Assembly (NCBI RefSeq): GCF_041468085.1
Contig: NZ_CP121015.1
Span: 310,001-374,000 of the forward strand
Length of the DNA stretch: 64,000 nt
Direction: 5' to 3'
DNA from: Tistrella mobilis
GTDB taxonomy: Bacteria; Pseudomonadota; Alphaproteobacteria; Tistrellales; Tistrellaceae
Position numbers and translations under genes: made by a program. Below the pieces are notes generated by a model that saw only the letters and a program-made list of their open reading frames with translations, did no database searches and was not told the DNA's origin. This document shows positions 2,035-56,559 of this stretch, piece after piece; positions within the stretch are counted from its first letter, which is position 1, and every line of letters begins with the position of its first letter.

Positions 2035-2192
2035 GCCGCCCTTTTCTCCGTCCGTCTCGATTTTTCGTTCCAGATCAATGTGTTGGTGGCCGAGATATGC
2101 GCGGCTGCCACACGGCCGGACTGCCCTGCCCTTGGCAACGATCATTGCATGATCGCCGGCCCTTCGACAGCCTGAAATCCCCCCAATAAAGT

Positions 2193-2211
2193 CGATAAGA
2201 TATAGTTATCG
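2193..2211. promoter_or_regulatory. Inverted repeat in AT-rich spacer
   Basis: CGATAA and TTATCG form perfect 6-bp arms around a 7-bp spacer, in the AT-rich 288-bp gap between the nucleotidyltransferase start and the sulfotransferase stop. It could be an operator for the nucleotidyltransferase gene or only a local palindrome. The rest of this gap shows no gene. Confidence 0.3.
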
Positions 2212-2322
2212 TACTTTGAGACGAAAAATTACAGAAACGCTGCCGCCTGAAGAAATTGCAGCTCCACCTCCACATAATCACCAAAGGACCAGCCTGGCCC
2301 CATTGCCAACCAGAGCAAGGGG

Positions 2323-3192
2323 TCAGCCCTCCCACCCGCCATCAGCCCGATAGTCGAAGCGCTGCATCATATCTGCCGAGCGCTCCACCAGTTCCCGCAG
2401 CAGCACCGGATCTGCGTCCTGCCAGCCGATGCCGCTCCGTCCCGCGCGGAAAAACACCGGCGAGGCGGCCGGCCGTTCGCGGAACCCGACCTCGCGTTCC
2501 TCGGCTTGCAGGCGGTCGAAGCGGCAGAACTCGACCGCCCGTGCGACCAGCCCGGCATCTTCCGACAGCCCGGCCATTGCGGCGGCCCGGGTGAAGCCGG
2601 CGATCGCATCCGCGCGCAGATCCTCGTATCGCAGGCTGATCACCGGCCAGGGCAGATCATCGGCGGTCCACGAGGCCGTATGACCGGCCCAGCTGCCGAC
2701 GGTTTCAGGCATCGGCAGTTGCAGCCGGTCCATGTCTCCGCCGATGCGGTGTGCCGGGTCCAGCAGCGCGCGGATGGTGTCGTCGATCGTCCAGCCCCGA
2801 TGATGGGCATAGGATGCCGCCACATCGAAGGGATGTCGCACCAGATGGATCACGCCGCGCACGATCTCGGGCGGATAGAGCCAGGCGCCGGCATCCGTGC
2901 GTCGGGCCGCCTCATGGGTTTTCAGAACCAGCGGCACATCCGCCGGCTGCCCCTTCGCGAAACTCCGAAACACCTCGGGCCAGTAGCGGTCGATTTCGGT
3001 GACGGTCAGATCCGATGCTTCGACCGGTCCGAAACGGTCGAAAATCATCCGGCGCTGCACATAAAGGCCGGTTTCGATGTCGTTGATCGAGATCGGCGCC
3101 CGGGCGCGGCGAATCACATGATCCAGCACCAGCCTCGTCCAGGTGTTGCCGGATTTGGGATAGCTCGCAATCAGCACCAGCGCGGCCGTCAA
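2323..3192 (-). CDS. Sulfotransferase A (PAPS-dependent, sulfotransfer_1 type)
   Basis: 289-residue cytosolic sulfotransferase. The 5'-phosphosulfate loop S-Y-P-K-S-G-N-T-W lies at about residues 10-18 and the 3'-phosphate site V-R-H-P-F-D-V-A-A-S-Y at about 112-122. Later there is W-P-V-I-S-L-R-Y-E-D-L, typical of the family. No ATG lies before the P-loop at a sensible distance; the best start is a TTG at 3192 whose last two bases are shared with the TGA of the upstream HPr-kinase-like gene (TTGA), implying translational coupling. The acceptor is unknown. Its context is two sulfotransferases, a P-loop kinase homologue and small peptides, which suggests a peptide or glycan acceptor. A remnant of a closely similar gene is present at 5457-5595. 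Confidence 0.88.
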   Translation of the reverse strand: MTAALVLIASYPKSGNTWTRLVLDHVIRRARAPISINDIETGLYVQRRMIFDRFGPVEASDLTVTEIDRYWPEVFRSFAKGQPADVPLVLKTHEAARRTDAGAWLYPPEIVRGVIHLVRHPFDVAASYAHHRGWTIDDTIRALLDPAHRIGGDMDRLQLPMPETVGSWAGHTASWTADDLPWPVISLRYEDLRADAIAGFTRAAAMAGLSEDAGLVARAVEFCRFDRLQAEEREVGFRERPAASPVFFRAGRSGIGWQDADPVLLRELVERSADMMQRFDYRADGGWEG

Positions 3193-4052
3193 CGCCCGGC
3201 CTCCGCAACCCGTTCGGCCAGGCGTTCGTAAAGTTCGTCTGGCGAAGGCCTGTGCGAAATGCCCAGGCGACACACCCGCAGCTGTGCCGCAAGCCGTGTC
3301 ATCATCGCCATATGCGTTGCCTGCCGGCCCATCGCCCGCACCTGCCCGGGGCGGAAGACCTCGGCGGCCAGGGCTTCGAGCCGGTCGACCCCGCTCAGCA
3401 TAACCGTCTCCCCGCCCCGGTGCAGATCAAGCAGCACCACATGCCCCAGCGCCACCGGCCCCGGCATTTGTATCACCCGGTGCAACACCCGGCCATGCTG
3501 CGGCCGCGCCATGGGCAGCGCCGCGGGGATGATGCCCAGCATCCGGGCGGCATCCGGCCAGAGTGCCACGACCGGCGTGCCCGGCCAGGCAAGCGGCCGT
3601 CCCTCGGCGTCCAGTGTCACCCGAACCACCTCGTCAGCCACGAACCGCCAGCCGCGCCCCAACAGCATTGCCGCCAGCGTCGACTTGCCGGCCCCCGATG
3701 CCCCGCTGATGGCCACTGCCGCCTTGCCCCCGGGCGGCAGCAGACAGGCCGCATGCAATGGCAGCTCCCCCCGCTGATGGATCAACCCGGCAAGCGGGGT
3801 GCGGACGGCGAAATAATTCAGATCCGCGTCGGACACCCCGGCCTCGCCGGCGATCAGAAGCCGCCGCCCCTCCTCGGCCAGAAACCGGCCGATGCCGGGC
3901 ATGCGGATCAGCAACCGGTCAGACGTCGCCTCGACGAACCCGTTCACCGGCACCGCCCCGGCGAGATGGTCGGGAAGGGCCGCGACGCGGTGGATGTCCA
4001 CATCCGGAAGGTCTGGACAGGATGTGATCAGCGACGTCGACGAGGCGGGCAT
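3189..4052 (-). CDS. HPr kinase-like P-loop protein (HprK-related), locus 1
   Basis: 287-residue protein related to the C-terminal catalytic half of HPr serine kinase. There is a conserved histidine in L-P-L-H-A-A (H100), Walker A G-A-S-G-A-G-K-S-T at 117-125, and an acidic V-A-D-E-V segment near residue 140. The N-terminal ~90 residues are a beta-rich region with no Hpr recognition domain. Relatives act in peptide-modification systems, including lasso peptide kinases that phosphorylate the C-terminal serine of the peptide. The start at 4052 is preceded by AGGATCGTT. A longer frame upstream crosses into the divergent gene and is rejected. It is translationally coupled to sulfotransferase A and divergent from sulfotransferase B. 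A second homologue occurs at 50939-51868. Confidence 0.85.
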   Translation of the reverse strand: MPASSTSLITSCPDLPDVDIHRVAALPDHLAGAVPVNGFVEATSDRLLIRMPGIGRFLAEEGRRLLIAGEAGVSDADLNYFAVRTPLAGLIHQRGELPLHAACLLPPGGKAAVAISGASGAGKSTLAAMLLGRGWRFVADEVVRVTLDAEGRPLAWPGTPVVALWPDAARMLGIIPAALPMARPQHGRVLHRVIQMPGPVALGHVVLLDLHRGGETVMLSGVDRLEALAAEVFRPGQVRAMGRQATHMAMMTRLAAQLRVCRLGISHRPSPDELYERLAERVAEAGR

Positions 4053-4064
4053 AACGATCCTGAG

Positions 4065-4093
4065 CTGACTGGCTGCGATTCTGCCGTTATACA
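4065..4093 (+). promoter_or_regulatory. Candidate promoter for sulfotransferase B and peptide A
   Basis: CTGACT and TATACA are separated by 17 bp in the 87-bp divergent gap between the HPr-kinase-like gene and sulfotransferase B. The -10 element matches the vegetative consensus well and the -35 element only partly. Confidence 0.35.
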
Positions 4094-4139
4094 ATGACGT
4101 CCGCCCTGTGGTACAGCCGCCGCCAGAAGCGAAGTTGCC

Positions 4140-4976
4140 ATGTTTACAATCCGCAATTTTATGCGCCCCCGGACGCTTCCTGACCTGCTGATTCTTGGTG
4201 CCCAGCGATCTGGCACGACCTGGCTGTACAGTATTCTTGCCTCGCATCCTGAGGTTGCCGTCGGCCAGGTCAAAGAGCCACAGGCTCTTACCTTGTTCTG
4301 GCCAGAGGCATATGACGTCTGGTCCCGCCTGCTGCCGCCACGCCGCGGCCGCCACGACCGGCGGTTGCGGATCGATGCCAGCCCCTACATGCTCGCCCAT
4401 CCGCTGGCCCCGGCCCGTGCGGCGCAGATCTTCCCCAAGCCGCCGAAGATGATCGTGCTCCTGCGCGATCCGGTCGCCCGCGCCTGGTCACATTACTGTC
4501 ATGAATTGGCTGCCGGCCGCGAGTTTCTGGGGTTTACGGAGGCGTTGCAGGCGGAGGCGGAGCGGCTTTCAGGCGAGGCTGAACGCTTCGACCGGATCGT
4601 TCGTGGTCTTGAGCGCGACAGGCCGGGTATGCCGCATCAATGCTGGTCCTATACCGAAAGAGGCCGCTACGCCCAGCAACTGGATCGATGGCGCCGTCAT
4701 TTCCCGCCAGCAGCCTTGCTGATCCTACGATCGGAAGATCTGTTCAAATCTCCAGGGCCTACCCTTGCCACAGTTGGCGCCTTTCTTGGTCTTGAAGGGC
4801 TTTCACTTCCCGCAACCGAACTCAGGCGCAATGCCGGACCCGCCCATTCGATGCCTGATGCAGCTCAAGCCCTGCTTCGGCAATACCTGCCCGACGGCCC
4901 GGCATGGCATGATGCCTACAATAATATGACGACGCCACTCCCTGATGGACAGGCCGGGAGCGTCCACTTACTCTGA
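4140..4976 (+). CDS. Sulfotransferase B (heparan-sulfate/NDST-like family)
   Basis: 278-residue sulfotransferase with the PAPS-binding loop G-A-Q-R-S-G-T-T-W-L at residues 20-29 and the 3'-phosphate-binding segment L-L-R-D-P-V-A-R-A-W-S-H-Y at about 107-119. A later L-I-L-R-S-E-D-L-F matches the third conserved block. It belongs to the carbohydrate/peptide sulfotransferase branch and is only distantly related to sulfotransferase A. Peptide A starts 38 bp downstream on the same strand, so the two are probably co-transcribed. The segment from codon ~123 to beyond the peptide gene is duplicated in tandem to the right. Possible acceptors include the tyrosine or serine hydroxyls of the neighbouring peptides, but a glycan acceptor is equally possible. 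Confidence 0.88.
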   Translation: MFTIRNFMRPRTLPDLLILGAQRSGTTWLYSILASHPEVAVGQVKEPQALTLFWPEAYDVWSRLLPPRRGRHDRRLRIDASPYMLAHPLAPARAAQIFPKPPKMIVLLRDPVARAWSHYCHELAAGREFLGFTEALQAEAERLSGEAERFDRIVRGLERDRPGMPHQCWSYTERGRYAQQLDRWRRHFPPAALLILRSEDLFKSPGPTLATVGAFLGLEGLSLPATELRRNAGPAHSMPDAAQALLRQYLPDGPAWHDAYNNMTTPLPDGQAGSVHLL

Positions 4977-5461
4977 CGGAGATTTGCCCATGATTTGCGA
5001 AGGAGCATAACCGAATGACTGATCAGATTTCTCCGTCCTCGCACACGAATGCCGCGGACCACACCTCACAGGGGCAAGCGGTCTGGGCGCGCCCGGTATT
5101 GCGGCCCCTGACGATCGCCTCCGAGACGCTCGGTGGCATTCGCGGTACCTCTGATGGCTATTGTGTTTCTTGATTGAAGAACAGACGCCATCGCCGCCGG
5201 AACTGTGTTCAGGCACCCTGAGATAGCCTGTACGCAGGCCGGTGCGGCCGAGGACATGCCCCCGCCTCGTTCCACCTCTCCAGCACCAAAGCCGGCAATA
5301 CGAGTCCGGGACGGCCATCGATCCGGGTAGCCGGGTTCCTGGCGCAATGCCCGGCCTCGTCGGCGCCCGGCCTCGTCGATGTCTGGCTTCCAAGGGCGCG
5401 CTGGCCTCAAACTGCATTAAAGTTTCGCTTATTCGGTGCACACCTGTACCCGTCAGCCGAT
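4507..5461 (+). repeat. Tandem duplication, left copy
   Basis: This segment and 5596-6477 are imperfect direct copies. Each contains the 3' part of the sulfotransferase B gene, a 52-codon peptide gene and about 290 bp of following sequence that ends near a shared TTTCGCTTATTCGGTG. The left copy is the intact one. The right copy lacks about 80 bp inside the sulfotransferase part and carries scattered substitutions. Bases 5174-5456 of this copy hold no gene that I recognise. Confidence 0.92.
5015..5173 (+). CDS. Candidate RiPP precursor peptide A (52 aa, lasso-like pattern)
   Basis: ATG at 5015 has AGGAG nine bases upstream and the frame closes with TGA at 5171-5173. The peptide begins MTDQISPSSH. 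A conserved W24-A-R-P27-V-L29-R-P-L block follows, then S-E-T38-L39, then the C-terminal stretch GGIRGTSDGYCVS. If cleaved after L39, the core has Gly at position 1, Asp at position 8, Cys at 11 and Ser at the C-terminus, with Thr at -2. Those spacings, and the aromatic-x-x-P-x-L leader motif, are those of lasso peptide precursors. The C-terminal Ser is the residue that lasso-peptide HprK-like kinases phosphorylate, and such a homologue lies 1 kb away. No cyclase or protease gene is in the window. Coding status is supported by its conserved paralogues B and C. Confidence 0.72.
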   Translation: MTDQISPSSHTNAADHTSQGQAVWARPVLRPLTIASETLGGIRGTSDGYCVS

Positions 5462-5595
5462 CCGTCCGGCCCGGAAGAACGCCGGTGACTTGCCCGGGCG
5501 TTCCCGAAAACCCACACGCCGTTCCTCTGCCTGCAGGCGGTCGAAGCGGCAGAACTCGACGGCCCGTGCGACCAGCCCGGCATCTTCCGTCAGCC
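5457..5595 (-). pseudogene. Remnant of a sulfotransferase A-like gene
   Basis: Read on the minus strand, this 139-bp piece encodes L-T-E-D-A-G-L-V-A-R-A-V-E-F, then C-R-F-D-R-L-Q-A-E-E-R, then V-G-F-R-E-R-P and F-F-R-A-G-R. This matches sulfotransferase A around its residues 210-255 (DNA at about 2437-2576), with a few substitutions. Nothing before or after it continues the gene. It sits exactly between the two copies of the tandem duplication, in the orientation opposite to them, so it marks a recombination joint involving a third sulfotransferase gene. Confidence 0.82.
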
Positions 5596-5939
5596 TGGCT
5601 GCCGGCCGCGAGTTTCCGGGGTTTACGGAGGCGTTGCAGGCGGAGGCAGAGCGGCTTTCAGGCGAGGCTGGACACTACGCCCAGCAACTTGATCGATGGC
5701 GCCGTCATGGTCATTTCCCGCCATCAGCCTTGCTGATCCTGCGATCGGAAGATCTATTTAAAGCTCCAGGGCCTACCCTGGCCACAGTTGGTGCCTTTCT
5801 TGGTCTTGAAGGGCTTTCACCTCCCACAACCGAACTCGGGCGCAATGCCGGGCCCGTCCATTCGATGCCTGACGCAGCTCAAGCCCTGCTTCGGCAATAC
5901 CTGCCCGACGGCCCGGCATGGCATGGCATGACGCAGTAA
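5596..5939 (+). pseudogene. Truncated copy of sulfotransferase B (3' part)
   Basis: The frame matches sulfotransferase B from L-A-A-G-R-E-F onward, including L-I-L-R-S-E-D-L-F and T-L-A-T-V-G-A-F-L-G-L-E-G-L. It lacks the first ~122 residues with the PAPS P-loop and has lost a further ~27 codons after G-E-A. It also carries a small insertion before F-P-P and ends early at a TAA at 5937-5939, so it cannot encode an active enzyme. It has been carried along by the duplication that created peptide gene B. Confidence 0.9.
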
Positions 5940-6030
5940 TATAACGACGCCCACTCCCTGATGGACAGGCCAGGAGCGTTCACCTATTCTGGCCGGGACT
6001 TGTCCATGACTTGCGCAGGAGCACAACCGA

Positions 6031-6189
6031 ATGACTGATCAGATTTCTCCGTCCTCGCACACGAATGCCGCGGACTGCACCTCAGAGGTGCGATCGGCCT
6101 GGGCGCGTCCGGTATTGCGGCCCCTGATGATCGCCTCCGAGACGCTGGGTGGCGTTCTTAATGGCTATGATGGCTATTGCGGGTCTTGA
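6031..6189 (+). CDS. Candidate RiPP precursor peptide B (52 aa, paralogue of A)
   Basis: ATG at 6031 follows AGGAGCACAACCG and the stop is TGA at 6187-6189. The first 15 residues are identical to peptide A, as is the W24-A-R-P-V-L-R-P-L block and the S-E-T38-L39 end of the leader. The predicted core is GGVLNGYDGYCGS. Gly1, Gly2, Asp8, Gly9, Tyr10, Cys11 and the C-terminal Ser13 are the same as in A, while core residues 3-7 and 12 are changed. A conserved leader with a variable core is the hallmark of RiPP precursor duplication. The region between D15 and W24 also differs (C-T-S-E-V-R-S-A). As with A, the maturation enzymes are unproven. Confidence 0.72.
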   Translation: MTDQISPSSHTNAADCTSEVRSAWARPVLRPLMIASETLGGVLNGYDGYCGS

Positions 6190-6522
6190 TGAAGAACAGG
6201 CGCCATCGCTCGCCGGAACTGTGTACAGGCACCATCAGAGTGGCTGTACGAAGGACGGTGCGGCCGAGGACGTGCCCCCGCCTCGTTCCACCTCTCCAGC
6301 ATCAAAGCCGGCAATACGCGTCCGGGACGGCCATCGATCCGGGTAGCCGGGTTCCTGGCGCAATGCCTGGCCTCGTCGGCGCCCGGCCTCGTCAATGTCT
6401 GGCCTCCAAGAGCGCGCTGGCCCCAAACTGCATTAACGTTTCGCTTATTCGGTGGACACCTGTACCCGTCCGCCGATACAGGGACATTTTATGCGGGCCC
6501 GCCCCTCAGGCATGATCTGCCC

Positions 6523-7644
6523 TCAGACGTGATGTGACTGCCCGATCGGCGCTGCCCCCGCCGCCTCGCGGTGCATGACCAGCCGTCGGACCCGTCGGCC
6601 CACCGCCTCCAGCGCCAGAACCGGCAGCAGAAGCGGCAGCACGCGCCCGAAACGGCGATCGATCCAGGCGATCCGGTCATCCGGATACCGGCTGGTTGAT
6701 CGCCGGGCGGCGTGATTGCGCAGGATGCCGCGTGCCAGCCGGCTGCGGCCAACCGCCGGTTCCGCCGGCGCTCCCGTTTCGGCCAGGCGGGTCATCAGCC
6801 GGCCGATATCCGCCGGCACCGGCCCTTTCGGTACCTCGGCATACCACCAGCCCTTGTGATGCACGCCATGGCTGCGGCACCGTTCCAGATGTCGCGGATC
6901 GGTGCTCCGGTTTGTGGCCAGATCGGCATGGGCGAACCGGCGGAATTTCCAGGCCGGACGCGCCGCCGGATCGACATACGAGAAATGCCGGCCGGCGCCC
7001 GGAATGACCGGCGCCGCGTGCAACCCCCGGCGCAGGGCCTGCATCGATCGCGGCGGCAGGCCGCGGGCCGGATCGCCCAGAATATCCATCACCCGCACGA
7101 CCACGCCCGGCGCACAGAACCAGATCGGGTCCAGCGCCTCCCAGGGCCCCGGCTTCAGGCGTGGCAGTGCCGTGGCAAAGGGTAGTGCCGGATCGGCGCA
7201 GCAGGGCGACCGCGGCCCCAGGCGCAGCGGATGTTCGTAATGCCGGGTCATGCCCAGCCGCATCGGCCGCTCCAGCCCGTCGCGCTTCAGCCGGCGCAGC
7301 AGCTCCGGATCGGGAATCTCGTCCACATCCAGGATCAGGACCAGATCATCGGGGCGGGCGTCCTGAAGCGCGAACACCGCCGCATTGCGCTGGAAGGCCT
7401 CGCGATCCCAGCCCGAACTATCGGCCGGCCCAAGCCGGGGCAGGCTGATATGTCGGATGCGGGCGGCCAGATCCGGCCGCGACGCCCGCGCCTCTGCCCA
7501 GGCGAGCGGCTTGGGCGCGCCCTGCATGGTCTGCGCGCCCTCGACCAGAACATGCTGGTCGACCACGCCATCGAGTTCCGCGATGCGATGCGCCAGCATG
7601 ACGAATTCGCCGTCGAACAGGAAGCAGTCATAGATGCGGCGCAT
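6523..7644 (-). CDS. Glycosyltransferase, GT17-like
   Basis: 373-residue protein beginning MRRIYDCFLFDGEFVMLAHRI, the characteristic opening of glycosyltransferase family 17 (beta-1,4-N-acetylglucosaminyltransferase-like). It has L-I-L-D-V-D-E-I-P-D at about residue 100 as the D-x-D nucleotide-sugar/metal site. A conserved H-K-G-W-W-Y-A motif lies near residue 270, and the tail is basic and amphipathic. The start at 7644 is preceded by GAGGG eight bases upstream; a longer frame begins in noncoding sequence. Bacterial GT17 proteins usually act on cell-surface glycans. It points towards peptide locus 1 from the right and ends 46 bp from the duplicated segment, so it may be part of that locus or an unrelated surface gene. 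Confidence 0.82.
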   Translation of the reverse strand: MRRIYDCFLFDGEFVMLAHRIAELDGVVDQHVLVEGAQTMQGAPKPLAWAEARASRPDLAARIRHISLPRLGPADSSGWDREAFQRNAAVFALQDARPDDLVLILDVDEIPDPELLRRLKRDGLERPMRLGMTRHYEHPLRLGPRSPCCADPALPFATALPRLKPGPWEALDPIWFCAPGVVVRVMDILGDPARGLPPRSMQALRRGLHAAPVIPGAGRHFSYVDPAARPAWKFRRFAHADLATNRSTDPRHLERCRSHGVHHKGWWYAEVPKGPVPADIGRLMTRLAETGAPAEPAVGRSRLARGILRNHAARRSTSRYPDDRIAWIDRRFGRVLPLLLPVLALEAVGRRVRRLVMHREAAGAAPIGQSHHV

Positions 7645-7687
7645 GGGGCGATCCCTCGCAACACGGCGGGACCCTTGGAACACGACA

Positions 7688-47932: not shown

Positions 47933-48472
47933 TCAGAGCGCGCCCTGATACTCGCCCCGGGCCGGATAATCGGCCTTGATCACGAAATCGAGTGCCGCCA
48001 GCAGTTCTTTCGCCGGCGGCCGGGCGAAGGGCATGGTCTGGACCGACATGTAATAGAGCGTGCCGTCGGCGCGGACCAGGAACAGGCCCGGTTCCGAGAA
48101 CAGCGCCGGTTCCTCGATGCCGATCGAGGTGGTGCCGCGGCCGGCGGAGATATAGAGCCCCCAGGCCCGGGCGGTGGCAAGGTCCAGCCCATGGCCCAGA
48201 CGCAGGGCCGAAACGCCCGCGCGTTCGGCCATCTGCCGGGCGCGATCGGCATCATCGGACGAGATCGCGATCAGCTCCACCCCGCGGGCGGCGAAATCGG
48301 GCACCAGCCGCTCCAGCTCTTTCAGCTGGGTGATGCAGATCGGGCAGTGCAGGCCGCGATAGAAGGCGATCAGGGTCATGCGCTCCGGCCGGGCGGTGGC
48401 GATGTCGAAACGGCCATGGGCCAGCGTGTCGACGGCCAGCGCCGGCACCGGCGCGCGGGGGGTGAGCGGCAT
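47933..48472 (-). CDS. Peroxiredoxin-like AhpC/TSA family protein
   Basis: 179-residue thioredoxin-fold protein. The segment L-I-A-F-Y-R-G-L-H-C-P-I-C-I-T-Q-L has a C-x-x-C in place of the single peroxidatic Cys, with the conserved Y-R-G-x-x-C-P-x-C pattern of the peroxiredoxin-like family. V-E-L-I-A-I-S-S-D-D follows. The start at 48472 is preceded by AAGGAG. It faces an AraC regulator gene across a 66-bp gap. Confidence 0.9.
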   Translation of the reverse strand: MPLTPRAPVPALAVDTLAHGRFDIATARPERMTLIAFYRGLHCPICITQLKELERLVPDFAARGVELIAISSDDADRARQMAERAGVSALRLGHGLDLATARAWGLYISAGRGTTSIGIEEPALFSEPGLFLVRADGTLYYMSVQTMPFARPPAKELLAALDFVIKADYPARGEYQGAL

Positions 48473-48538
48473 GGGGCAATCTCCTTGGATGGACAGGATG
48501 TCTTGACGAGGTGAAATCATCCTTCCAGAATTCAGGAC

Positions 48539-49342
48539 ATGAATGGTCCTGAAAATCTGACCCAAAGTCTGAAAGACACCACAGCCGCGGGCGCCCTGCG
48601 CATCGACCGGCTGTCGGCCTTTCTGCGGCGCTTTCCGCTGCGGGTCACGGCGCTGCGCGACGGTGGCCGGCCGGGCCCCGCGGCACAGTTCGCGCTGGCC
48701 GGCGACGCCGCCGCACCGGTGGCGCTGTTCGATGCCGCGGATATCGGCCCCGCCCTCGCCGATCGCCCCGCATTGCTGCTGGCCGAAATTGCCTTCGGCA
48801 GCGCCGGCAATCCGCTGCTGGCCGCCCTCGATCACACGATCGAGCTGCCGGCCGGCCATGATCCGCGGCTGGCGGCGGTTCTGGGCGCCCTGATCGCCGA
48901 ATGGCAGGACCCCCATTGCGGGGCCGTCGGCATGATCGAGCGGCTGATCGAAGCCGCGGTCATCCGGCTGCTGCGCACCGCGGTCGCCGACGGCGCCACT
49001 GCCCCGGGCCTGCTCGCCGGCCTGTCCCACCCCCGCCTGCATCGCACGCTCGCGGCCCTGCACGAGGCGCCGGAGCGGGTCTGGCGGGTGGAAGAGATGG
49101 CGGAGATCGCCGGCATGTCGCGCAGCGCCTTCATGGCGGCCTTCCGCGCCGTGCTCGGCACCAGCCCCGCCGCCTGGCTGACGGCCTGGCGGCTGGCCGA
49201 GGCCCGCCGCCATCTGGATGCCGGCCATACGGTAAAGGAAGCCGCGCGCCTGGTCGGCTTCGGCAGCGCCGAGGCTCTGGCCCATGCCCATCGCCGCCGG
49301 ATGGGACGCGCCGCGCCGCCGCTCAGCCGCCGGCCAGGCTGA
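48539..49342 (+). CDS. AraC-family transcriptional regulator (cupin_6-type N-terminus)
   Basis: 267-residue regulator. The C-terminal double helix-turn-helix (about residues 160-262) holds W-R-V-E-E-M-A-E-I-A-G-M-S-R-S-A-F and A-R-L-V-G-F-G-S-A-E-A-L-A-H-A. The N-terminal 130 residues resemble the AraC-binding cupin of stress-responsive members. ATG 48539 lies in an inverted repeat (AGGAC-ATGAATG-GTCCT) that may be its own operator. It is divergent from the peroxiredoxin gene, its likely target. The last 20 bases overlap the 3' end of the OGT-like gene. Confidence 0.9.
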   Translation: MNGPENLTQSLKDTTAAGALRIDRLSAFLRRFPLRVTALRDGGRPGPAAQFALAGDAAAPVALFDAADIGPALADRPALLLAEIAFGSAGNPLLAALDHTIELPAGHDPRLAAVLGALIAEWQDPHCGAVGMIERLIEAAVIRLLRTAVADGATAPGLLAGLSHPRLHRTLAALHEAPERVWRVEEMAEIAGMSRSAFMAAFRAVLGTSPAAWLTAWRLAEARRHLDAGHTVKEAARLVGFGSAEALAHAHRRRMGRAAPPLSRRPG

Positions 49343-50942
49343 GGAGCTGTGCCTCGACGGCACGGATGGTGGCGGGGCTGGCCGCGGCCAGCCGGGGGAT
49401 GTGGGTCGCGCGGAGTTCGGCCCTGAGCGCGCGCCGGGCCTCTGCATCGTCGATCAGGGCCAGCACACGGCCGATCCAGGCATCGCGCCCCTCTGCCACC
49501 AGACCGTCGGGGCCCAGGCAGGCAAGAATTGAGGCGGTGGTGCGCGAACAGGCCTGGCCACCGCCCATGGTGACCACCGGCACGCCCTGGGACAGCAGAT
49601 CCAGCGTCACCACCCCGCCGGAATAGGGGCTGGTGTCGAGCGCCAGATCCAGGCTGCGGATCACCGTGAGATAATCGGGCACGCCCCGCGCCAGCCGTTC
49701 GACCCGCCCGGGCGCCAGCCGATGGCGATCCTGCCAGCGGTCCAGCCGGGCGCCGATGGCCGGGTCATGGACAAGATCGTCCTGTAACACCAGCACGGTG
49801 GCGGGCCGGGCGTCGAGGATGGCTGCGAAGGCCTCCAGCAGGCTGTCGGGCAGCTTCTCCAGCCGCGCGGGACAGCCCAGACGCACGACATCGGCGCCGA
49901 TCCGCGGATCGGCATCGGGCGGGGCGGCAAGCGGGCTGCCGAGTGTCGGGCAGGGCACGTCCAGCGTGGCAAGCGACGCGGGCAGATCGGCCCGTTCGGC
50001 CGGCGGCAGCAGGACAGGGTCGGTCACCAGCCCGTCCATCACCGGCAGGCCGGTGCCCGGCAGATAGCCCCAGGCCTGGATCTGAAGGGCGGCCGGCCGG
50101 CGGGCGAAGATCCCGATGCGGTTGCCGCCGACATGGCCGTCAAGATCGACCAGGACATCGATGCCATCGGCCCGGATCAGATCCGCCGCCGCAGCATCGT
50201 CCAGCCCGGCGAGGCCCCGCCAGCCGTCGACCGCCAGGCGCAGCTGCAACAGCCGCGGATCGACGGGGGCCGGCAGGGTGGGATAGCAGGTGATGCGGAA
50301 GCGGCTGCGGTCATGGCCCATGATCATCGGCAGCACCACGCGCGCCGCGGCATGGTTGGTGAAACAGCCGCCGACATAGCCGATATGCAGCCGGCCATCG
50401 GCGGCCCGCGGCCGCGGCGCCGGCCGGCGCGGCCAGGACATGCCGGCGAAGACCGCATCCTGACGCCGGCGCAGCCCGGCGGTGGTCATGGCCGGATCGC
50501 AATTGGCGGCATAGAGGATATTGCCCGCCAGCCGCCAGTCGGCCGGATCAAGCCTTCGTCCCCGTTCCCAGGCCACCACCGCACCGGCAGGATCGGTCAG
50601 CAGCAGCCGGGCGCTGCCGGCGATGCGCCACAGATCCGCCGTCATCGCCGATGCCGCCGCGACATGGGCCGCGGCCTCGGTCGGGCGGCGCCGGCGCAGG
50701 GCCCCCTCCCCCGCCAGCGCCCGAAGGCCCGGATGATCCGGCCGGTCGGCAAGCCCCGCCGCCAGCACCGCATCGGCCTCGTCGAAGCGCCGCGACCAGC
50801 GCAGGATGCGTGTCAGCGTCTCGCGGATCTCGGGCGCCGGATCAAGCGCCAGCGCCCGATGCAGCAGATGAACGCCCTCGTCCAGCCCGCCCGACAGCGC
50901 GCGGCGCCGGCCTTCGGCCATCAACCCTGCCGCCGTGGTCAT
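49323..50942 (-). CDS. O-GlcNAc transferase-like glycosyltransferase (GT41/SPINDLY type)
   Basis: 539-residue protein. Residues ~1-130 are TPR-like helices (G-V-H-L-L-H-R-A-L-A-L-D-P and later A-L-A-G-E-G-A-L-R). The catalytic half begins H-I-G-Y-V-G-G-C-F-T-N-H and includes D-V-L-V-D-L-D-G-H, L-D-T-S-P-Y-S-G-G-V-V-T-L-D-L-L and G-V-P-V-V-T-M-G-G. These are the UDP-sugar-binding blocks of GT41. The true start is at 50942, overlapping the HPr-kinase-like gene by four bases (ATGA); a longer frame upstream is a shadow. It is the last gene of the peptide-C operon, so glycosylation of a peptide serine/threonine is possible. Confidence 0.9.
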   Translation of the reverse strand: MTTAAGLMAEGRRRALSGGLDEGVHLLHRALALDPAPEIRETLTRILRWSRRFDEADAVLAAGLADRPDHPGLRALAGEGALRRRRPTEAAAHVAAASAMTADLWRIAGSARLLLTDPAGAVVAWERGRRLDPADWRLAGNILYAANCDPAMTTAGLRRRQDAVFAGMSWPRRPAPRPRAADGRLHIGYVGGCFTNHAAARVVLPMIMGHDRSRFRITCYPTLPAPVDPRLLQLRLAVDGWRGLAGLDDAAAADLIRADGIDVLVDLDGHVGGNRIGIFARRPAALQIQAWGYLPGTGLPVMDGLVTDPVLLPPAERADLPASLATLDVPCPTLGSPLAAPPDADPRIGADVVRLGCPARLEKLPDSLLEAFAAILDARPATVLVLQDDLVHDPAIGARLDRWQDRHRLAPGRVERLARGVPDYLTVIRSLDLALDTSPYSGGVVTLDLLSQGVPVVTMGGGQACSRTTASILACLGPDGLVAEGRDAWIGRVLALIDDAEARRALRAELRATHIPRLAAASPATIRAVEAQLLSLAGG

Positions 50943-51868
50943 GACGCCTCTCCACCCCGGTCGATCATCCCCGGCAGGGCGCGGGCGACCTCGCCCAGCC
51001 GGTCGAGCCCCTGGGGAAGAGACAGGGTCAGCACCGGCATGTGGCGGGCAAGATCGAGCATCGCCTGCGAGACGGTGGCGGTCGCGCCGTAAAGCGGCAG
51101 CGTCTGGGGGCCGCCGGTGATCTGGCTGCGGATATCCTGAAGTGCCGCAAGGGCGGCGCGGCGGGTCAGCCGGGCCGGGCCGTCGGTCCGCTGGCCCAGC
51201 AGAACCATCCCGGCGACCGGCACCGGATCGGGCACCGGATCGGCCGCGGGCGCGACCAGGATCTTGCCATCCGGCGCCGGCGGCCCGGTGAAGCCCAGGG
51301 CCTGCGCCGCATCCGCCATCAGCCGCAGCCGCGGCAGAACCGGGGTGACGGTCACCCGCCCGTCGGCGACCACGGGCGAGGCCATGTCGTCGGCGATCAC
51401 CTGCCCGCCGGCCCCGACGAGTGCCGCGGCCAGGGTCGATTTCCCGCGGCCGCTGGCGCCGGCGATCAGGATCGCCCGCCCCGCCACCACCACGGCGGCG
51501 GCATGCAGCGGCAGCCGGCCGCGGACCAGCAGGGCCGCGACAAGGCCCGAACTGGCGGCGGTCGTCCAGGCCAGCTCCCGCAAGACCCGGTCGGGCGCAT
51601 AAACGTTCAGCCGGTCCGGACGCGTCATCCACACCGCCCGGCCGTCGGGCTCGCGGATCATCCAGAGCCCGCGATCCCCGCGCCAGCGGCGGATGCACCA
51701 GTTCGGCCCGGATGCATCCCCGTCGCTCCCGATATCGGGCGGATCGGCCGCATCGGCGATGACGACATCGGCGGTGGGAGGCCAGGGCACGGCCGGTGCC
51801 GCGGCCACCACCGGCAGGGGGCGGTCGGATGCGATCACCAGCCCGGCGGCGGTGTGGAACCAGGCCAT
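50939..51868 (-). CDS. HPr kinase-like P-loop protein (HprK-related), locus 2
   Basis: 309-residue homologue of the HprK catalytic half. L-P-L-H-A-A (H122), Walker A G-A-S-G-R-G-K-S-T at 137-145, and V-I-A-D-D at about 157-161 are in the same order as in the locus 1 protein at 3189, which has the same L-P-L-H-A-A and G-A-S-G-x-G-K-S-T. The remainder is diverged. The first 90 residues are not recognised. It starts 11 bp after the PqqD-like gene and overlaps the OGT-like gene. PqqD-HprK pairs are a known arrangement in peptide-modification systems. Confidence 0.86.
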   Translation of the reverse strand: MAWFHTAAGLVIASDRPLPVVAAAPAVPWPPTADVVIADAADPPDIGSDGDASGPNWCIRRWRGDRGLWMIREPDGRAVWMTRPDRLNVYAPDRVLRELAWTTAASSGLVAALLVRGRLPLHAAAVVVAGRAILIAGASGRGKSTLAAALVGAGGQVIADDMASPVVADGRVTVTPVLPRLRLMADAAQALGFTGPPAPDGKILVAPAADPVPDPVPVAGMVLLGQRTDGPARLTRRAALAALQDIRSQITGGPQTLPLYGATATVSQAMLDLARHMPVLTLSLPQGLDRLGEVARALPGMIDRGGEAS

Positions 51869-51879
51869 GCGGGGCCGGC

Positions 51880-52185
51880 TCAGCCGGCGATGTCGACCAG
51901 CCCGTCGCCGATCAGCCCTTCAAGGAAGGGGGTGACATCGGCCAGGCAGGTTTCGGGGTCGACGGCATAGATCGCGGTCAGCCGGCGGCAGAGTTCCCCC
52001 AGCGAGACCGGCTCGGCGATCATCGCCGCGATCCGGCTGCCGGTGCTGCCGAGTGCCGAATAGGCGCCGCTCTCGGCATCGAGCAGAACCGTCTCGCCAT
52101 CCATCTCGGCGGTCAGGATGCCGGGGCGGATGCGGACCAGGGTTTCGGGCGACAGAACCGACGAGGCGGGGGCAGGCTGGGTCAT
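51880..52185 (-). CDS. PqqD-like RRE protein
   Basis: 101-residue protein of the PqqD (coenzyme PQQ synthesis D) family. These form the RiPP recognition element that binds leader peptides. R-I-R-P-G-I-L-T-A-E-M-D-G-E-T-V-L-L-D lies at about residues 18-36, followed by Y-S-A-L-G-S-T-G-S-R-I-A-A and a C-terminal helical V-T-P-F-L-E-G-L-I-G-D-G-L-V. The start at 52185 is preferred to a longer frame because the PqqD opening follows directly. It lies between the TylF-like methyltransferase and the HPr-kinase-like gene. Such domains recognise the leader of a small peptide, which supports the reading of 53718-53867 as a precursor. Confidence 0.87.
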   Translation of the reverse strand: MTQPAPASSVLSPETLVRIRPGILTAEMDGETVLLDAESGAYSALGSTGSRIAAMIAEPVSLGELCRRLTAIYAVDPETCLADVTPFLEGLIGDGLVDIAG

Positions 52186-52196
52186 GATGGTTCCGT

Positions 52197-53024
52197 TCAG
52201 CTCTTGCGCCAGGCGACGCAGGTCCAGTCGACCCGGTCGAGCGGCGTGGTGATGCCGCGGACATGCCGGAACATGTCGGTGGCGATCCGGCAGCCCTGCA
52301 CGGCGCCGTAATCGTCGATGATGATCCACCCGCCCGGCACCACGCGGTCGTACAGCGCCTCCAGGGCGGCGCGGGTGGAGGTAAAGAGATCCCCATCCAG
52401 GCGCAGCAGGGCGAGCGGCCCGGTTTCCAGCCCGGGCAGCGTCTCTTCGAACAACCCCTCGACGAAGCGGACCCGATCATCGAGCAGATCGAAGCGGCGG
52501 AAGGCGTCTTCGACCAGCGGCCGCGAGATCGCGAGCAGATCATCCTGCCGGAACAGGGTATCACCGGCATCGATGGCATGCGACGGCGCCGGCACGCCGG
52601 CAAAGCTGTCGGCCAGCCAGACCCGGCGGTCGGCCATGGCATGCACCGCCAGATAGCCGCGCAAGAAGATGCCGCACCCGCCCCGCCAGACCCCGGTTTC
52701 GATCAGATCCCCCGGCACGCCCTCGGTGCGGATGTCATCCAGGCAGGCTTCCAGATGATCCAGCCGCCGACGGCCGGTCATGGTATAGGCAAGCCCCAGG
52801 CCCGGGCGATCGGCCGCCGTCCAGCGCCCGTCATCGCGCCGCGCGGCTGCCGCCGCAAAAGCCTCCGCCTCGGCGAGGCGGATGTCGCGCAGATGATACG
52901 GGTCGGGTTCGGTCCCGGCCGCATGGCAGGCCGCGACATGGGCAAGGCGCAGCTCCGCCTCAAGCCCCGTCTGATTGAGCAGCACCTGCTTCAGCAGATC
53001 CAGATACAGCCGGGTCGGGCTCAT
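52197..53024 (-). CDS. TylF/MycF-type O-methyltransferase
   Basis: 275-residue class I SAM-dependent methyltransferase. It has L-A-Y-T-M-T-G-R-R-R-L, D-L-I-E-T-G-V-W-R-G-G-C-G as the SAM-binding loop near residue 120, W-L-A-D-S-F-A-G-V-P, and metal-site acidic segments L-R-L-D-G-D-L-F and I-I-I-D-D-Y-G-A. The D-G-D and D-D-Y pattern is that of macrocin O-methyltransferase. The start at 53024 shares one base with the preceding methyltransferase's stop (TGATG). In the peptide operon it may act on a side chain or a sugar added by the OGT-like protein. Confidence 0.9.
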   Translation of the reverse strand: MSPTRLYLDLLKQVLLNQTGLEAELRLAHVAACHAAGTEPDPYHLRDIRLAEAEAFAAAAARRDDGRWTAADRPGLGLAYTMTGRRRLDHLEACLDDIRTEGVPGDLIETGVWRGGCGIFLRGYLAVHAMADRRVWLADSFAGVPAPSHAIDAGDTLFRQDDLLAISRPLVEDAFRRFDLLDDRVRFVEGLFEETLPGLETGPLALLRLDGDLFTSTRAALEALYDRVVPGGWIIIDDYGAVQGCRIATDMFRHVRGITTPLDRVDWTCVAWRKS

Positions 53025-53692
53025 CAGGCCGGGTCGTCGCGGCGGCGGAGATAGCCGCCGGGGTTGAGCGTCATCATGAAGCGCTCGCAGGCCGGGTCGA
53101 CCTCGAATTCCGGATGCCGGGGCAGGAAGAAGGCGATCGCCTCGCTCGGCCCCGGCCCGTAATCGGGCCAGTTGGGCCGGCCGTTGACATGGCCGTCCTC
53201 GACGATCAGATAGCCGCCCGGCCGGACCAGCCCGGCATAGGCCTCCAGCTCCGCCAGCACATGCAGCAGCCGGTGGTCGCTGTCCAGGATCACCATCACC
53301 TCGGCATCGGGGCCGAGGGCGGCGGCGCGGTCGTAAACCGCCCGGACCATCTCGGGCGCGGTGGAACTGCCCGACAGAAAGCTGAGGCGCGGATGAACCG
53401 GCAGATCCGCCCGCCGGTCGTCATTGCGCAGATCGATGCTGACCACCTCGCCCGCCCCGATCAGATCGCAGATCGAGGCCAGGAACAGCCCGCTGCCGCC
53501 CCTGAAACTGCCGGTCTCCACGATCAGCGCCGGCCGGCGGCGGCAGATCAGCTCCTGATACATCATCAGGTCGGTGGGGTATTTGATCGTATCATGACCC
53601 AGCCAGGACACATGATAAGTGCCCCGGCCGGCCATGAAGCCGTCGAAACTGGCGCGCATGAACTGCACGGTCGCGTCGTTGCGATCGGTCAT
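53024..53692 (-). CDS. CmcI-family methyltransferase/hydroxylase
   Basis: 222-residue class I methyltransferase-fold protein of the cephalosporin hydroxylase (CmcI) family. It has T-Y-H-V-S-W-L-G-H-D-T-I-K, then P-A-L-I-V-E-T-G-S-F-R-G-G-S-G-L-F as the SAM loop, G-E-V-V-S-I-D-L-R-N, V-M-V-I-L-D-S-D-H, and L-I-V-E-D-G-H-V-N-G. The conserved D-S-D-H and E-D-G segments fit a metal-dependent methyltransferase. ATG 53692 lies 25 bp after the peptide-C stop; a longer frame starting inside the peptide gene is rejected. Confidence 0.9.
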   Translation of the reverse strand: MTDRNDATVQFMRASFDGFMAGRGTYHVSWLGHDTIKYPTDLMMYQELICRRRPALIVETGSFRGGSGLFLASICDLIGAGEVVSIDLRNDDRRADLPVHPRLSFLSGSSTAPEMVRAVYDRAAALGPDAEVMVILDSDHRLLHVLAELEAYAGLVRPGGYLIVEDGHVNGRPNWPDYGPGPSEAIAFFLPRHPEFEVDPACERFMMTLNPGGYLRRRDDPA

Positions 53693-53717
53693 GACAGCAG
53701 TCTTAGGAATCTGTCCG

Positions 53718-53867
53718 TCAAGAACCCATACACGGACCATCGCCACTCAGGGACGGACCACTCTGCGCCGTCTCCAGATTCCGGGTCCGCGCCACCGGCC
53801 TCACCCAGATCTCGCGATCCTCGGCGGACACATCCTCGACGTCGGAAACGATCATGCGGTCGGCCAT
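53718..53867 (-). CDS. Candidate RiPP precursor peptide C (49 aa)
   Basis: ATG at 53867 follows GGGAG nine bases upstream and ends with TGA at 53718-53720. It begins MADRMIVSDV, continues to W21-V-R-P24-V-A-R, then L-E-T33-A, and ends QSGPSLSGDGPCMGS. The W-x-R-P-V-x-R leader motif, the E-T motif, D-G-x-C and the C-terminal serine are shared with peptides A and B 48 kb away, although the rest of the sequence is unrelated. Only the distance from T to the D is one residue longer. It is the first gene of an operon with two methyltransferases, a PqqD-like protein, an HPr-kinase-like protein and an OGT-like protein. This context makes it a probable precursor. A longer upstream frame exists but has no ribosome site near its ATG. 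Confidence 0.75.
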   Translation of the reverse strand: MADRMIVSDVEDVSAEDREIWVRPVARTRNLETAQSGPSLSGDGPCMGS

Positions 53868-54029
53868 CTTCGCAGTCTCCCTGCCAGGGGGGGGCCGGCA
53901 CAGATGCGGCCGGCGGGCAGCCAGCTTCAGACTGCCCGCCTCTTCATACCAAAGGACGGCACAAAGAACATAATTGTTTATCTTCGACCTTATCCGCCCG
54001 CCACGCACCCTCGTCAGGAAGGTGCCCCG

Positions 54030-55211
54030 TCACCGCCCGTAAACCGCCCCCTCCACCGCCAGATAAAGCGGCAGCGATTTCACATCCGCGAAGGGCAGGA
54101 TCTGGGTCGCATAGACCCCGGCGAGGCCGGTCTTCGGGTCGATCCAGTAATAGCTGTTGGCGAGCCCCGCCCAGGCGAGGGAGCCGGCCGGGCGGCCGGT
54201 GGGCGCGTCCTCTTCGTTGATCATGAAGCTGAGGCCCCAGCTTTTGGGCAGGCCGGGGAAGAACTCGGCATCATTGGTCAGGTCGTGGAGCACGGCCTTG
54301 AGCGGGCGGACGCGGAGATCGCCCATGGCGTTGCGGCTCATCTGCGCGACGGTTTCGGGCTTCAGAACCTGGCCCCCGCCATCGGCGCGGCCCTGGTTCA
54401 GGAACAGGCGGCAGAAGCGCAGATAGTCGCGCACCGTGCCGTAAAGCCCGCCGCCGCCCATTTCGAATTCGGGATCCTGCGGGATTTCCAGATCGGTGGC
54501 GGCGAGCCCGCCATCGATGCCGCGGGCATGGATCGGCGCCAGCCGGGCGCGCATGTCGTCGCGGATCCGGAAGGCGGTATCGGTCATGCCCAGCGGCCCC
54601 AGCACCTCTTCGGCCAGATACTCGCCCAGCCGTCGGCCGGTCACCGCCTCGATCATCCGGCCGGTATGATCGATGCCGATACCGTATTCCCAGCGCTCCC
54701 CCGGATCGAAGATCAGCGGCGTGTTCAATGCCGCCACCTGGCAGCTGACCATCGGCGGCAGGCCCATCACCTCCTGGCAGCGCACGATGTCGGCGTTCCA
54801 GAAGTCATAAGAGAAACCCGCCGTATGGGTCAGCAGCTGGCGAAGCGTGATCTGGCCGCGCGGGGCACGGAGCCGGGGATTGCCGGCCTCGTCGAAACCG
54901 TCCAGCACCTGGACCCGGCCGAGTTCGGGCAGCACCTCGGCGGCAGGCCCGTCGAGAGACAGCCGGCCGCGCTCCACCAGCTGCATGGCGGCGGTGCCGG
55001 TGATCGCCTTGGTCATGGAGGCGATCCAGACCACGGTATCGGGCGTCATCGCCTGGTCACCGCCCATGGTGCGGGTGCCGGCCGCCGCCTCGAAAATCTG
55101 GCCATCGGCGTCGCCGATCGCCACCGCCACCCCCGGCACATCGCCGGCCGCCACCGCCTGGTCCAGCAGGGCCTGCACCCTGGGGCCGAATTCCTGTGCG
55201 TTCATGCTCAT
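54030..55211 (-). CDS. Class C beta-lactamase family serine hydrolase (EstB-like esterase)
   Basis: 393-residue serine hydrolase. The nucleophile is in S-M-T-K near residue 68 (W-I-A-S-M-T-K-A), the second motif Y-x-x lies in Y-G-I-G-I-D-H, and the third is H-x-G-like. The length and opening M-S-M-N-A-Q-E-F-G-P-R-V match esterases of family VIII more than true beta-lactamases. The start at 55211 is preceded by GGAGG eight bases upstream. It is separate from the arsenic genes and from the peptide operon, although on the same strand as both. No signal peptide is visible, so it is probably cytoplasmic. Confidence 0.9.
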   Translation of the reverse strand: MSMNAQEFGPRVQALLDQAVAAGDVPGVAVAIGDADGQIFEAAAGTRTMGGDQAMTPDTVVWIASMTKAITGTAAMQLVERGRLSLDGPAAEVLPELGRVQVLDGFDEAGNPRLRAPRGQITLRQLLTHTAGFSYDFWNADIVRCQEVMGLPPMVSCQVAALNTPLIFDPGERWEYGIGIDHTGRMIEAVTGRRLGEYLAEEVLGPLGMTDTAFRIRDDMRARLAPIHARGIDGGLAATDLEIPQDPEFEMGGGGLYGTVRDYLRFCRLFLNQGRADGGGQVLKPETVAQMSRNAMGDLRVRPLKAVLHDLTNDAEFFPGLPKSWGLSFMINEEDAPTGRPAGSLAWAGLANSYYWIDPKTGLAGVYATQILPFADVKSLPLYLAVEGAVYGR

Positions 55212-55308
55212 CTGACGTTCCTCCGGTGATCCCGGCCGTGTTGCCCGGCCGTTGTCATGGCGCAAGTCTAGCACGCTGCATAACGCAACATGGAGGCCCG
55301 GTTTTGCG

Positions 55309-56559
55309 TCAGAGCCGCCGGGCGGCAAGCCAGCTGAACAGAGCCATGAGGCCTGCGGTCGCAAGGCAGAGGCCGAGCCCGCCCAGCTGATAGCTCACCC
55401 CCGAGAGCAGGGTGCCGATCAGCCGGCCGGCGGCATTGGCCATGTAATAGAAGCCGACATCGCGGGTGATCCGCCCGGCATCGCCGAAGGCCAGGATCAG
55501 ATAGGAATGGACCGAGGAATTGACTGCGAAGACGAAGCCGAAGAGCAGCAGCCCCGCGACCAGCAGAGCCGTCAGCCAGAGGGCCGGGCCGCCCGCCAGC
55601 CAGACGGCGGCGGCGAGGGCAAACGGGATCGGCACCAGCGCCCCCGCCCAGAGGATCGCCTTGCGCACCGTCGCCGCCTCGGCCTCGCCTCGGGCCTTCA
55701 GGATGCGTGGCGCCAGCGCCTGGACCAGGCCATAGGCGATGATCCAGAGCGCCATGAACCCGCCGACGATGAAAAACGCCTCGCGCCGCCCCTCGGCGGT
55801 GCCGTCGGACAGCACCGCCTGGAAATAGACCGGAATGCCGACCACGAACCAGACGTCGCGGGCGCCGAACAGGAACATCCGCGCCAGCGACAGCCGGTTC
55901 ACCCGCGCATCTTTCGACCGCCAGCCGGACCAGCTTTCGGAAGCCTTCATGCGGCCGGGCAGCCCCGCGGGCAGGAACAGGATCACGGCCGCCAGGATCA
56001 CGGCCAGGACCGCGGCCATGCCCCAGATCGCCGCCTGGAACCCCGCCAGCGCCAGCAGGGCGGCCCCCAGGAAGAAGCCCAGCCCCTTGACCGCGTTCTT
56101 CGAGCCCGTCAGCAGCGCCACCCAGCGGAACAGCCCGCCACCCGTCGCGGGTGCCAGCAGCTTGACCGCGGATTTGGACGACATCTTGGCGAGGTCCTTG
56201 GCAACCCCCGAAACCCCCTGCACCGCCATCACGAAGGCGACCGAAGCGGCCAGGCTCCAGCCCGGATCGAGCCGGGCGAGGGCTGCCAGCGCCGCGATCT
56301 GCAGGCCCAGCCCGCCATAGAGCGTCGCCGCCAGGCCGAACCGCGCCGCCAGCCAGCCAGCGGCCAGATTGGTGGCGATGCCCGCCAGTTCATAGAGCAG
56401 AAACAGCCAGGCCAGCTGCACCGGCGTGAAGCCCAGCGCGTTGAAATGCAGCAGCACCAGCATGCGCAGCGCGCCATCGGACAGCATGAAGGCCCAATAG
56501 GCGGCGGTGACGGCGGCATAGGCGCGCACGGGGTTCGCGGGGGCGGCCTGTCTCAGCAT
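55309..56559 (-). CDS. arsJ: ArsJ organoarsenical efflux transporter (MFS)
   Basis: 416-residue MFS protein matching ArsJ. It has [31 protein letters not shown], the central [16 protein letters not shown], then [12 protein letters not shown]. ArsJ exports 1-arseno-3-phosphoglycerate, made by the partner GAPDH. The GAPDH gene is directly upstream and overlaps by seven bases (ATGCTGA), which is the typical pairing. Confidence 0.93.

Follow-up and report, generated by a model that had tools for sequence, protein, structure and literature searches.

Here we describe a six-gene operon in a 64-kb stretch of Tistrella mobilis DNA (the window; G000:C2:310001-374000, from a genome of 6.3 Mb in four contigs) that encodes a short precursor peptide, two O-methyltransferases, a leader-binding protein of the PqqD family, an HprK-like kinase and a GT41 glycosyltransferase. 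With a probability of roughly 0.6, we read it as an operon for a ribosomally synthesised and post-translationally modified peptide (RiPP) that derives from kinase-bearing lasso clusters, lacks the lasso enzymes and carries glycan-type tailoring, its product most likely being a linear phospho-glyco-methyl peptide. The gene content and order, the precursor family, the motifs and the absence from the operon of the lasso cyclase and leader peptidase (B2) are established by the sequence itself.

The six genes are all encoded on the minus strand, at 49323-53867, with gaps or overlaps of -4 to 25 bases between neighbours, a content and spacing that an earlier reading made from the sequence alone (the sequence-only reading) had described and that our gene calls and profile matches confirm. 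The gene for the 49-residue precursor (53718-53867) is followed after 25 bases by a member of the CmcI/rhamnosyl O-methyltransferase family (PF04989), here called CmcI (53024-53692; Pfam E-value 3e-54), which overlaps by one base a TylF/MycF/NovP-type O-methyltransferase (PF05711), here called TylF (52197-53024; 9e-103). After a gap of 11 bases comes PqqD (51880-52185; 3e-14), a stand-alone RiPP recognition element (RRE) of the lasso-peptide type, and after another 11 bases the HprK-like kinase (50939-51868), which matches Pfam Hpr_kinase_C in the P-loop region only (8e-7, 29.2 bits, under the curated cut-off of 33.3). The last gene, overlapping the kinase gene by four bases, encodes a protein with tetratricopeptide repeats (TPR) and a GT41 domain (49323-50942; 8e-29).

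The order of the six genes is identical in all three Tistrella genomes compared (G000, G001 and G002), with an additional precursor copy between TylF and PqqD in G002, which supports the single operon proposed earlier. The same operon is present on plasmid pTM1 of T. mobilis KA081020-065, and the kinase, used as a query over genome contigs, returned a single locus, the T. mobilis operon. A decaying lasso cluster on its way out, which has in its favour that cyclase, peptidase and exporter are all absent among the six genes, appears highly improbable to us: every one of the six frames is open in the three species, the dN/dS of CmcI, TylF and PqqD is 0.10-0.25 within Tistrella, and each of two relatives carries two precursor copies.

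Searches with tblastn found the peptide upstream of CmcI in the two other Tistrella species (9e-18 and 5e-14), so the observation that would have refuted the sequence-only reading, relatives with no small open reading frame (ORF) at that place, does not hold; each relative also has a second copy nearby, and conservation of the peptide in three of three species rules out a chance ORF. The five copies comprise that of the window, two upstream of CmcI in G001, and two in G002, the first of them also upstream of CmcI and the other between TylF and PqqD. In the plasmid gene table both G002 copies are annotated as hypothetical proteins (WP_187297846.1 and WP_187297847.1). The peptide consists of a leader of about residues 1-34, with W21-x-x-P24, and a core of about residues 35-49, with Asp43 and a C-terminal Ser49; M1, D17, R18, W21, V22, P24, V25, A26 and A34 are invariant in the five-copy alignment. 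All five copies end in Ser, and an Asp lies five to six residues ahead of it, at W+22 in four copies and W+23 in one. Gly follows this Asp in just two of five copies, and we reject Asp-Gly isoaspartate chemistry on that account. Identity among the upstream orthologues is 74-85% in the leader and 27-58% in the core, and nonsynonymous divergence (pN) is 0.31-0.62 in the core, against 0.014-0.041 in CmcI, TylF and PqqD and 0.05-0.15 in the kinase and GT41 genes. The peptide gene is more divergent at synonymous sites too (pS 0.35-0.54, against 0.07-0.24 for CmcI, TylF and PqqD), a hint that precursor cassettes may have been exchanged.

The link to lasso peptides comes from the leader-binding protein and the kinase. 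Both the lasso leader motif, [Y/W]xxPx[LVIAFY], and a lasso-type RRE are present as sequence features. PqqD scores 5e-18 and 64.9 bits against NCBIfam lasso_PqqD_Bac, not reaching the curated cut-off of 80, and its nearest PDB sequences are chain B of 9x90 (a "lasso peptide biosynthesis PqqD family chaperone"; 1.6e-9), TbiB1 (1.7e-7) and TfuB1 (9.6e-5), with a far weaker match to 9x8z, a PqqD family protein (0.056). Entries 9x90 and 9x8z are presumably the structures of PbaB1 and LppB from PMC13381572. The kinase has the complete H-G-G-GK[ST]-DD motif (H122-G137-G140-G142-K143-S144-D160-D161). Its spacing is identical to that of the lasso-peptide kinase BsfK (H148-G163-G166-G168-K169-S170-D186-D187; PMC10368454). 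According to PMC9266682, PadeK, ThcoK, SyanK and PsmK act on a C-terminal Ser, a site extremely conserved in clusters with a homologous kinase, and we propose Ser49 as the probable phosphosite on that account. With its lasso-type RRE and intact lasso-kinase motif, the combination of precursor, PqqD and HprK-like kinase holds up as the true peptide-modification set that had been suspected.

A lasso pathway requires both a B2 peptidase and an Asn-synthase-like cyclase. Neither Asn synthase nor Transglut_core3 has a match inside the window, and hence none in the operon, and we reject a plain lasso cluster as its identity. The nearest Asn-synthase match on the operon's contig (G000:C2) is 105 kb from the peptide, in G000 and G002 none comes within ~100 kb of the precursors, and the 495-kb G001 contig has none; several of our genome searches scored only a subset of 6 to 40 candidates per genome, and such absences are not proofs. 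Each Tistrella genome has 10-13 Asn-synthase matches, a number that includes paired fragments of a single gene as well as ordinary asparagine synthetases, and a single match to PF13471 (Transglut_core3), an orphan B2-like protein that is syntenic in all three genomes (G000:C1:736888, locus L068; L069 6687-7211; L070 6953-7477). The orphan gene lies on a contig other than the operon's in G000, has unrelated flanking genes and is far from every PqqD match; it is a candidate shared leader peptidase. By eye, 12 of 14 other PqqD-bearing genomes searched have at least one B2 match within ~11 kb of a PqqD match that has Asn synthase within ~12 kb, the arrangement of normal lasso clusters. The exceptions are G006, with no B2 match, and G041, where ~226 kb separate the only B2 from the PqqD/Asn-synthase/HprK cluster. 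One of the 12, G096, also has four PqqD/Asn-synthase pairs without a nearby B2 (C1:386302, C2:180655, C6:246537 and C15:85151). Because PqqD clusters without a nearby B2 exist in G041 and G096, the supply of B2 in trans is plausible.

The orphan peptidase, the arrangement in G041 and the 10-13 Asn-synthase matches per Tistrella genome also favour a different outcome, a true lasso or branched-cyclic peptide made by the orphan B2 and one of the Asn-synthase-like cyclases of other clusters acting in trans, with ring closure through the conserved Asp. The Asp stands at a near-fixed place in five of five copies and, in one parse that sets the lasso -2 position at W+12, two of five have the expected Thr, features that would also fit such a ring; by eye, most cyclase-free sibling loci likewise retain Thr(-2) and Asp8/9 at lasso-like places. 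The same parse leaves three of five copies without the Thr and would start the core with Gln or Glu, and only 5-6 residues would remain as a tail after the Asp. Taking these together with the distance to any Asn-synthase match, we consider this outcome rather unlikely.

The glycosyltransferase is a relative of both SPINDLY (SPY) and O-GlcNAc transferases: its best match is 5djs (1.5e-42), which we take to be TtOGT, followed by SPINDLY (2e-35) and animal OGTs (~1e-24), and by these values it is closer to SPINDLY than to animal OGT, with mixed donor residues. In an alignment with the printed SPY sequence, K665 (K363 here) and Y744 (Y440) are kept among the donor residues named in PMC10027727, where a prokaryotic intermediate GT41 group with mixed residues is on record. 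Carried over through the same alignment, L866, R904 and C917 of human OGT become Gln387, Val427 and Tyr440, so none of the three donor-selecting residues matches. SPY Y744 clashes with the N-acetyl group of N-acetylglucosamine (GlcNAc; PMC10027727), and TtOGT, also Tyr-bearing, showed no O-GlcNAc activity in vitro (PMC9715652). Because the protein combines the clashing Tyr with none of the OGT donor residues, GlcNAc is the less likely donor and a hexose or deoxyhexose would be favoured; we set O-GlcNAc aside on these grounds, and the mass shift of +203 anticipated by the sequence-only reading becomes correspondingly less likely.

CmcI is the sole match to its family in each Tistrella genome and scores 1e-36 against the rhamnosyl O-methyltransferase profile, far under the cut-off, while the solved relatives of TylF include NovP and mycinamicin III 3''-O-methyltransferase. 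Methyltransferases of the NovP/mycinamicin and rhamnosyl types act on deoxysugars, and for this reason a methylated sugar is the reading that we prefer. The CmcI, TylF and GT41 families are mainly known from small-molecule glycans and proteins, and the nearest relatives of TylF in the class (52% identity, in G164 and G036) are not beside a PqqD match. The operon could on these grounds be taken to decorate a cell-surface glycan or protein, the peptide being a regulator or carrier and PqqD and HprK mere neighbours. Such a role is improbable in our view, given the tight single operon in three of three species, the conserved leader with its hypervariable core, the precursor-like ORFs that stand beside PqqD/HprK at many loci, and, in another family, a fused PqqD-TylF gene that immediately follows a W-x-x-P peptide (see below).

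We suggest the following course for the pathway. By homology, PqqD would bind the W-x-x-P leader and present the peptide, and the kinase would phosphorylate it one or more times, likeliest on the shared C-terminal Ser. The TPR/GT41 protein would then add a sugar, a hexose or deoxyhexose in preference to GlcNAc, to a core Ser/Thr or to the phosphate, and TylF and CmcI would O-methylate that sugar, the alternative being direct methylation of the peptide. Finally, and speculatively, removal of the leader at about residue 34-36 would fall to a protease from another locus, for which the orphan B2-like protein is a candidate. Phosphorylation, methylation and glycosylation, as foreseen by the sequence-only reading, stay the predicted chemistry.

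The operon is one of many related loci in these genomes. PqqD occurs at 24 places over the three Tistrella genomes (7-10 per genome) and HprK-like matches number 7-9 per genome, with small [W/Y]xxP ORFs adjoining the PqqD/HprK positions at many loci. In 42 stretches (the window and 41 loci, leaving out the duplicates L047-L049 as well as L062 and L068-L070), we counted every ORF with [W/Y/F]xxPx[LVIAFYM] at a fitting place, noise included. Ser-ending ORFs made up 39 of 107 within 3 kb of PqqD/HprK, against 14 of 96 farther away (Fisher p = 4e-4, the orthologues among them not being independent). Genes at these loci were called from ORFs and codon composition, and the Asn-synthase positions used in the count comprised all those of G096 and some of those of the other genomes. 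Convincing precursors with a different last residue are PqqA of the PQQ clusters, the third L034 ORF and those in L046, where HprK and Asn synthase are both present, and in L065, which lacks HprK. No Asn-synthase match lies within 30 kb of window positions 1.4-7.7 kb and the related loci L043 and L044, of L034 and L067, or of L041. A PqqD tree, many of whose nodes are weakly supported, intersperses cyclase-free with cyclase-bearing loci, a pattern that suggests repeated loss of the cyclase.

Within the window, positions 1444-7683 hold a second precursor/kinase locus with no PqqD or Asn-synthase match nearby. It comprises an NTP_transf_6 protein (1444-2145), a sulfotransferase (2323-3273), an HprK-like frame (3189-4400), two 52-residue WARPVL...S peptides on the plus strand (5015-5173 and 6031-6189) and a GT17 protein (6523-7683); G002 has two WARPVL-type peptides and G001 at least one. 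L034 and L067 each have an HprK-like gene and at least two W-x-K-P peptides, with endings GVS, GIS, AVS and GTS, and no PqqD or Asn-synthase match within 60 kb; L034 also has a sulfotransferase. At L052, L056 and L063 a PqqD is accompanied by a WxxP...S peptide, with no HprK or Asn-synthase match near, and by eye L052 contains GNAT-like and tail-collar-like proteins.

Around the operon, a scan for promoters and terminators returned no terminator and one promoter-like site, on the opposite strand. The 5' leader of the precursor gene contains a G+C-rich hairpin (GGCGGGCAG...CTGCCCGCC; 53912-53940, minus strand) that is kept in three species, with a G-U pair of the stem in one species being G-C in another. 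Predicted folding energies are -29 to -35 kcal/mol for 55-base segments (window, L027 and L028 aligned), and no Rfam family matched at window positions 48000-56000, hairpin included. The upstream flank in G002 holds a serine hydrolase plus arsenic/MFS genes.

Across a sample of 385 genomes of the class, strong matches to the precursor profile were confined to the three Tistrella genomes, with weak ones (E <= 0.05) in 50 others. Inspection of 17 of these weak loci gave one plausible precursor, L078 in G096, whose surrounding 3 kb has no match to the other operon proteins; at least two others, the matches in L080 and L081, are, by eye, antisense to an apparent pseudouridine synthase gene. CmcI was matched in 47 of the 385 genomes (E <= 1e-5) and TylF in 89 (E <= 1e-10). 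Comparing the positions of CmcI, TylF, PqqD, B2 and Asn-synthase matches by eye, we found CmcI, TylF and PqqD together in only three genomes, all Tistrella, where all six genes co-occur. A weak TylF match lies ~6 kb from a PqqD/HprK/B2 cluster with Asn synthase in G036, and a weak CmcI match ~12 kb from a PqqD match in G324.

Outside Tistrella, one genome has TylF adjoining PqqD: G096, from another family, where the two are fused in a protein of up to 414 residues (L092 10939-12183). A gap of 26 bases separates the fusion gene from a preceding peptide ORF (L092 12210-12410), which contains WVTPDM and ends in Ser. Next come a Glyco_trans_1_2 glycosyltransferase, with an 8-base overlap, an HprK-like frame and another PqqD, and the nearest Asn-synthase match is 33 kb off. 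We consider this locus the best evidence that TylF may act on an RRE-bound peptide or its sugar. The TylF sequences of G096 and Tistrella share 42% identity, and each has a better match than the other within the set compared, so TylF may have been recruited independently in the two. Taken further, the operon could represent a new RiPP branch of Tistrella and a second alphaproteobacterial family, making linear phosphopeptides with an O-methylated sugar (added by GT41 in Tistrella) on an RRE-bound precursor; it would descend from kinase-bearing lasso clusters that lost the cyclase repeatedly, with one orphan leader peptidase serving many scattered precursor loci in trans. This broader proposal we put forward only tentatively.

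Several observations weigh against a linear phospho-glyco-methyl peptide made as we propose. BsfK (PMC10368454) and LppK (PMC13381572) target Ser3 of the core and not a C-terminal Ser, and an AlphaFold2 model of our kinase, built from a two-row alignment, reached a predicted local distance difference test score (pLDDT) of 32. In the G096 kinase, EE stands where the lasso-kinase motif has DD, and CmcI has no match in that genome. Apart from the two residues already named, none of the SPY donor residues is kept in the GT41 protein (K689 is replaced by Gln, A731 by Val, N662 by Arg, T747 by Gly, T748 by Val, E752 by Asp and I592 by Trp), and XcOGT, which shares the Tyr, was able to GlcNAcylate one plant substrate but no substrate in bacterial lysates (PMC9715652). 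GDP-mannose dehydratase (gmd) falls below its profile cut-off in all three Tistrella genomes, which makes synthesis of GDP-fucose, the donor that SPY uses, improbable, and we retain GDP-fucose as donor only weakly. By Pfam, no transporter or protease is found among the six genes.

The closest published parallel is that of the linear polyphosphorylated peptides (LPPs; Popov et al. 2026, PMC13381572), a cyclase-free family of RRE and HprK reported there as restricted to Bacillota. Like LPP clusters, the operon combines a stand-alone lasso-type RRE, an HprK-like kinase and a [Y/W]xxP precursor with a variable core, and has no macrolactam cyclase. Leaders of LPPs carry YxxP and those of paeninodins WxxP, with matching RRE preferences (PMC13381572). 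In contrast to the LPP leader YxxPxVLxHQxIxFETxxS and its core Ser3, the Tistrella precursors have WVxPVA, no conserved Ser at core position 3 and a shared C-terminal Ser, and Tistrella adds two O-methyltransferases and GT41. The SpI-type peptidase, NTP-transferase and MsbA-like exporter described for LPPs are not among the six genes by Pfam, the rest of the genome not having been searched for them. Lasso peptides of the paeninodin/pseudomycoidin type (PadeK, ThcoK, SyanK, PsmK/PsmN; PMC9266682) resemble the operon in WxxP (paeninodins), the lasso-type PqqD, the kinase motif, the C-terminal Ser and an acidic residue some way past the leader; unlike them, the operon and window lack B2 and cyclase, and GT41 and the methyltransferases replace the NTP-transferase PsmN. 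The Bsf cluster of Bradymonas shares the kinase motif spacing, and its RRE speeds phosphorylation, but it is a true lasso cluster with B2 whose kinase targets core Ser3 (PMC10368454). As for the tailoring enzymes, TPR and GT41 domains and the equivalents of SPY K665 and Y744 are shared with SPINDLY, OGT and 5djs, whereas the remaining donor residues fit neither SPINDLY nor OGT and the predicted acceptor is a RiPP precursor. Both methyltransferases belong by profile with TylF/MycF/NovP and CmcI/rhamnosyl O-methyltransferases, and TylF also by PDB sequence match, but here they stand in a RiPP-type operon and in G096 the TylF domain is fused to an RRE. The operon thus appears to fit neither the LPP nor the lasso class, as it lacks defining features of each.

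We recognised no description of this gene content in the open-access literature, a coverage mostly without subscription journals. To that extent the statement of the sequence-only reading that no described system has exactly this content stands, while the principle of a cyclase-free RRE and HprK system has been published for LPPs (PMC13381572). That reading had overlooked the lasso link, the Ser at the end of every copy, the Asp conserved among them, the lack of both cyclase and leader peptidase, and the sibling loci elsewhere in the genome. The first account of cyclase-free kin of phosphorylated lasso peptides dates from 2026 and covers Bacillota only (PMC13381572); an alphaproteobacterial form, if true, would make the lasso RRE and kinase a general platform for linear phosphopeptides and would add RiPP precursors to the range of SPINDLY/OGT-type glycosyltransferases and of TylF/CmcI methyltransferases. 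The operon offers a compact six-gene set for co-expression, and Tistrella would become a model for the sharing of enzymes, or its avoidance, among scattered precursor loci.

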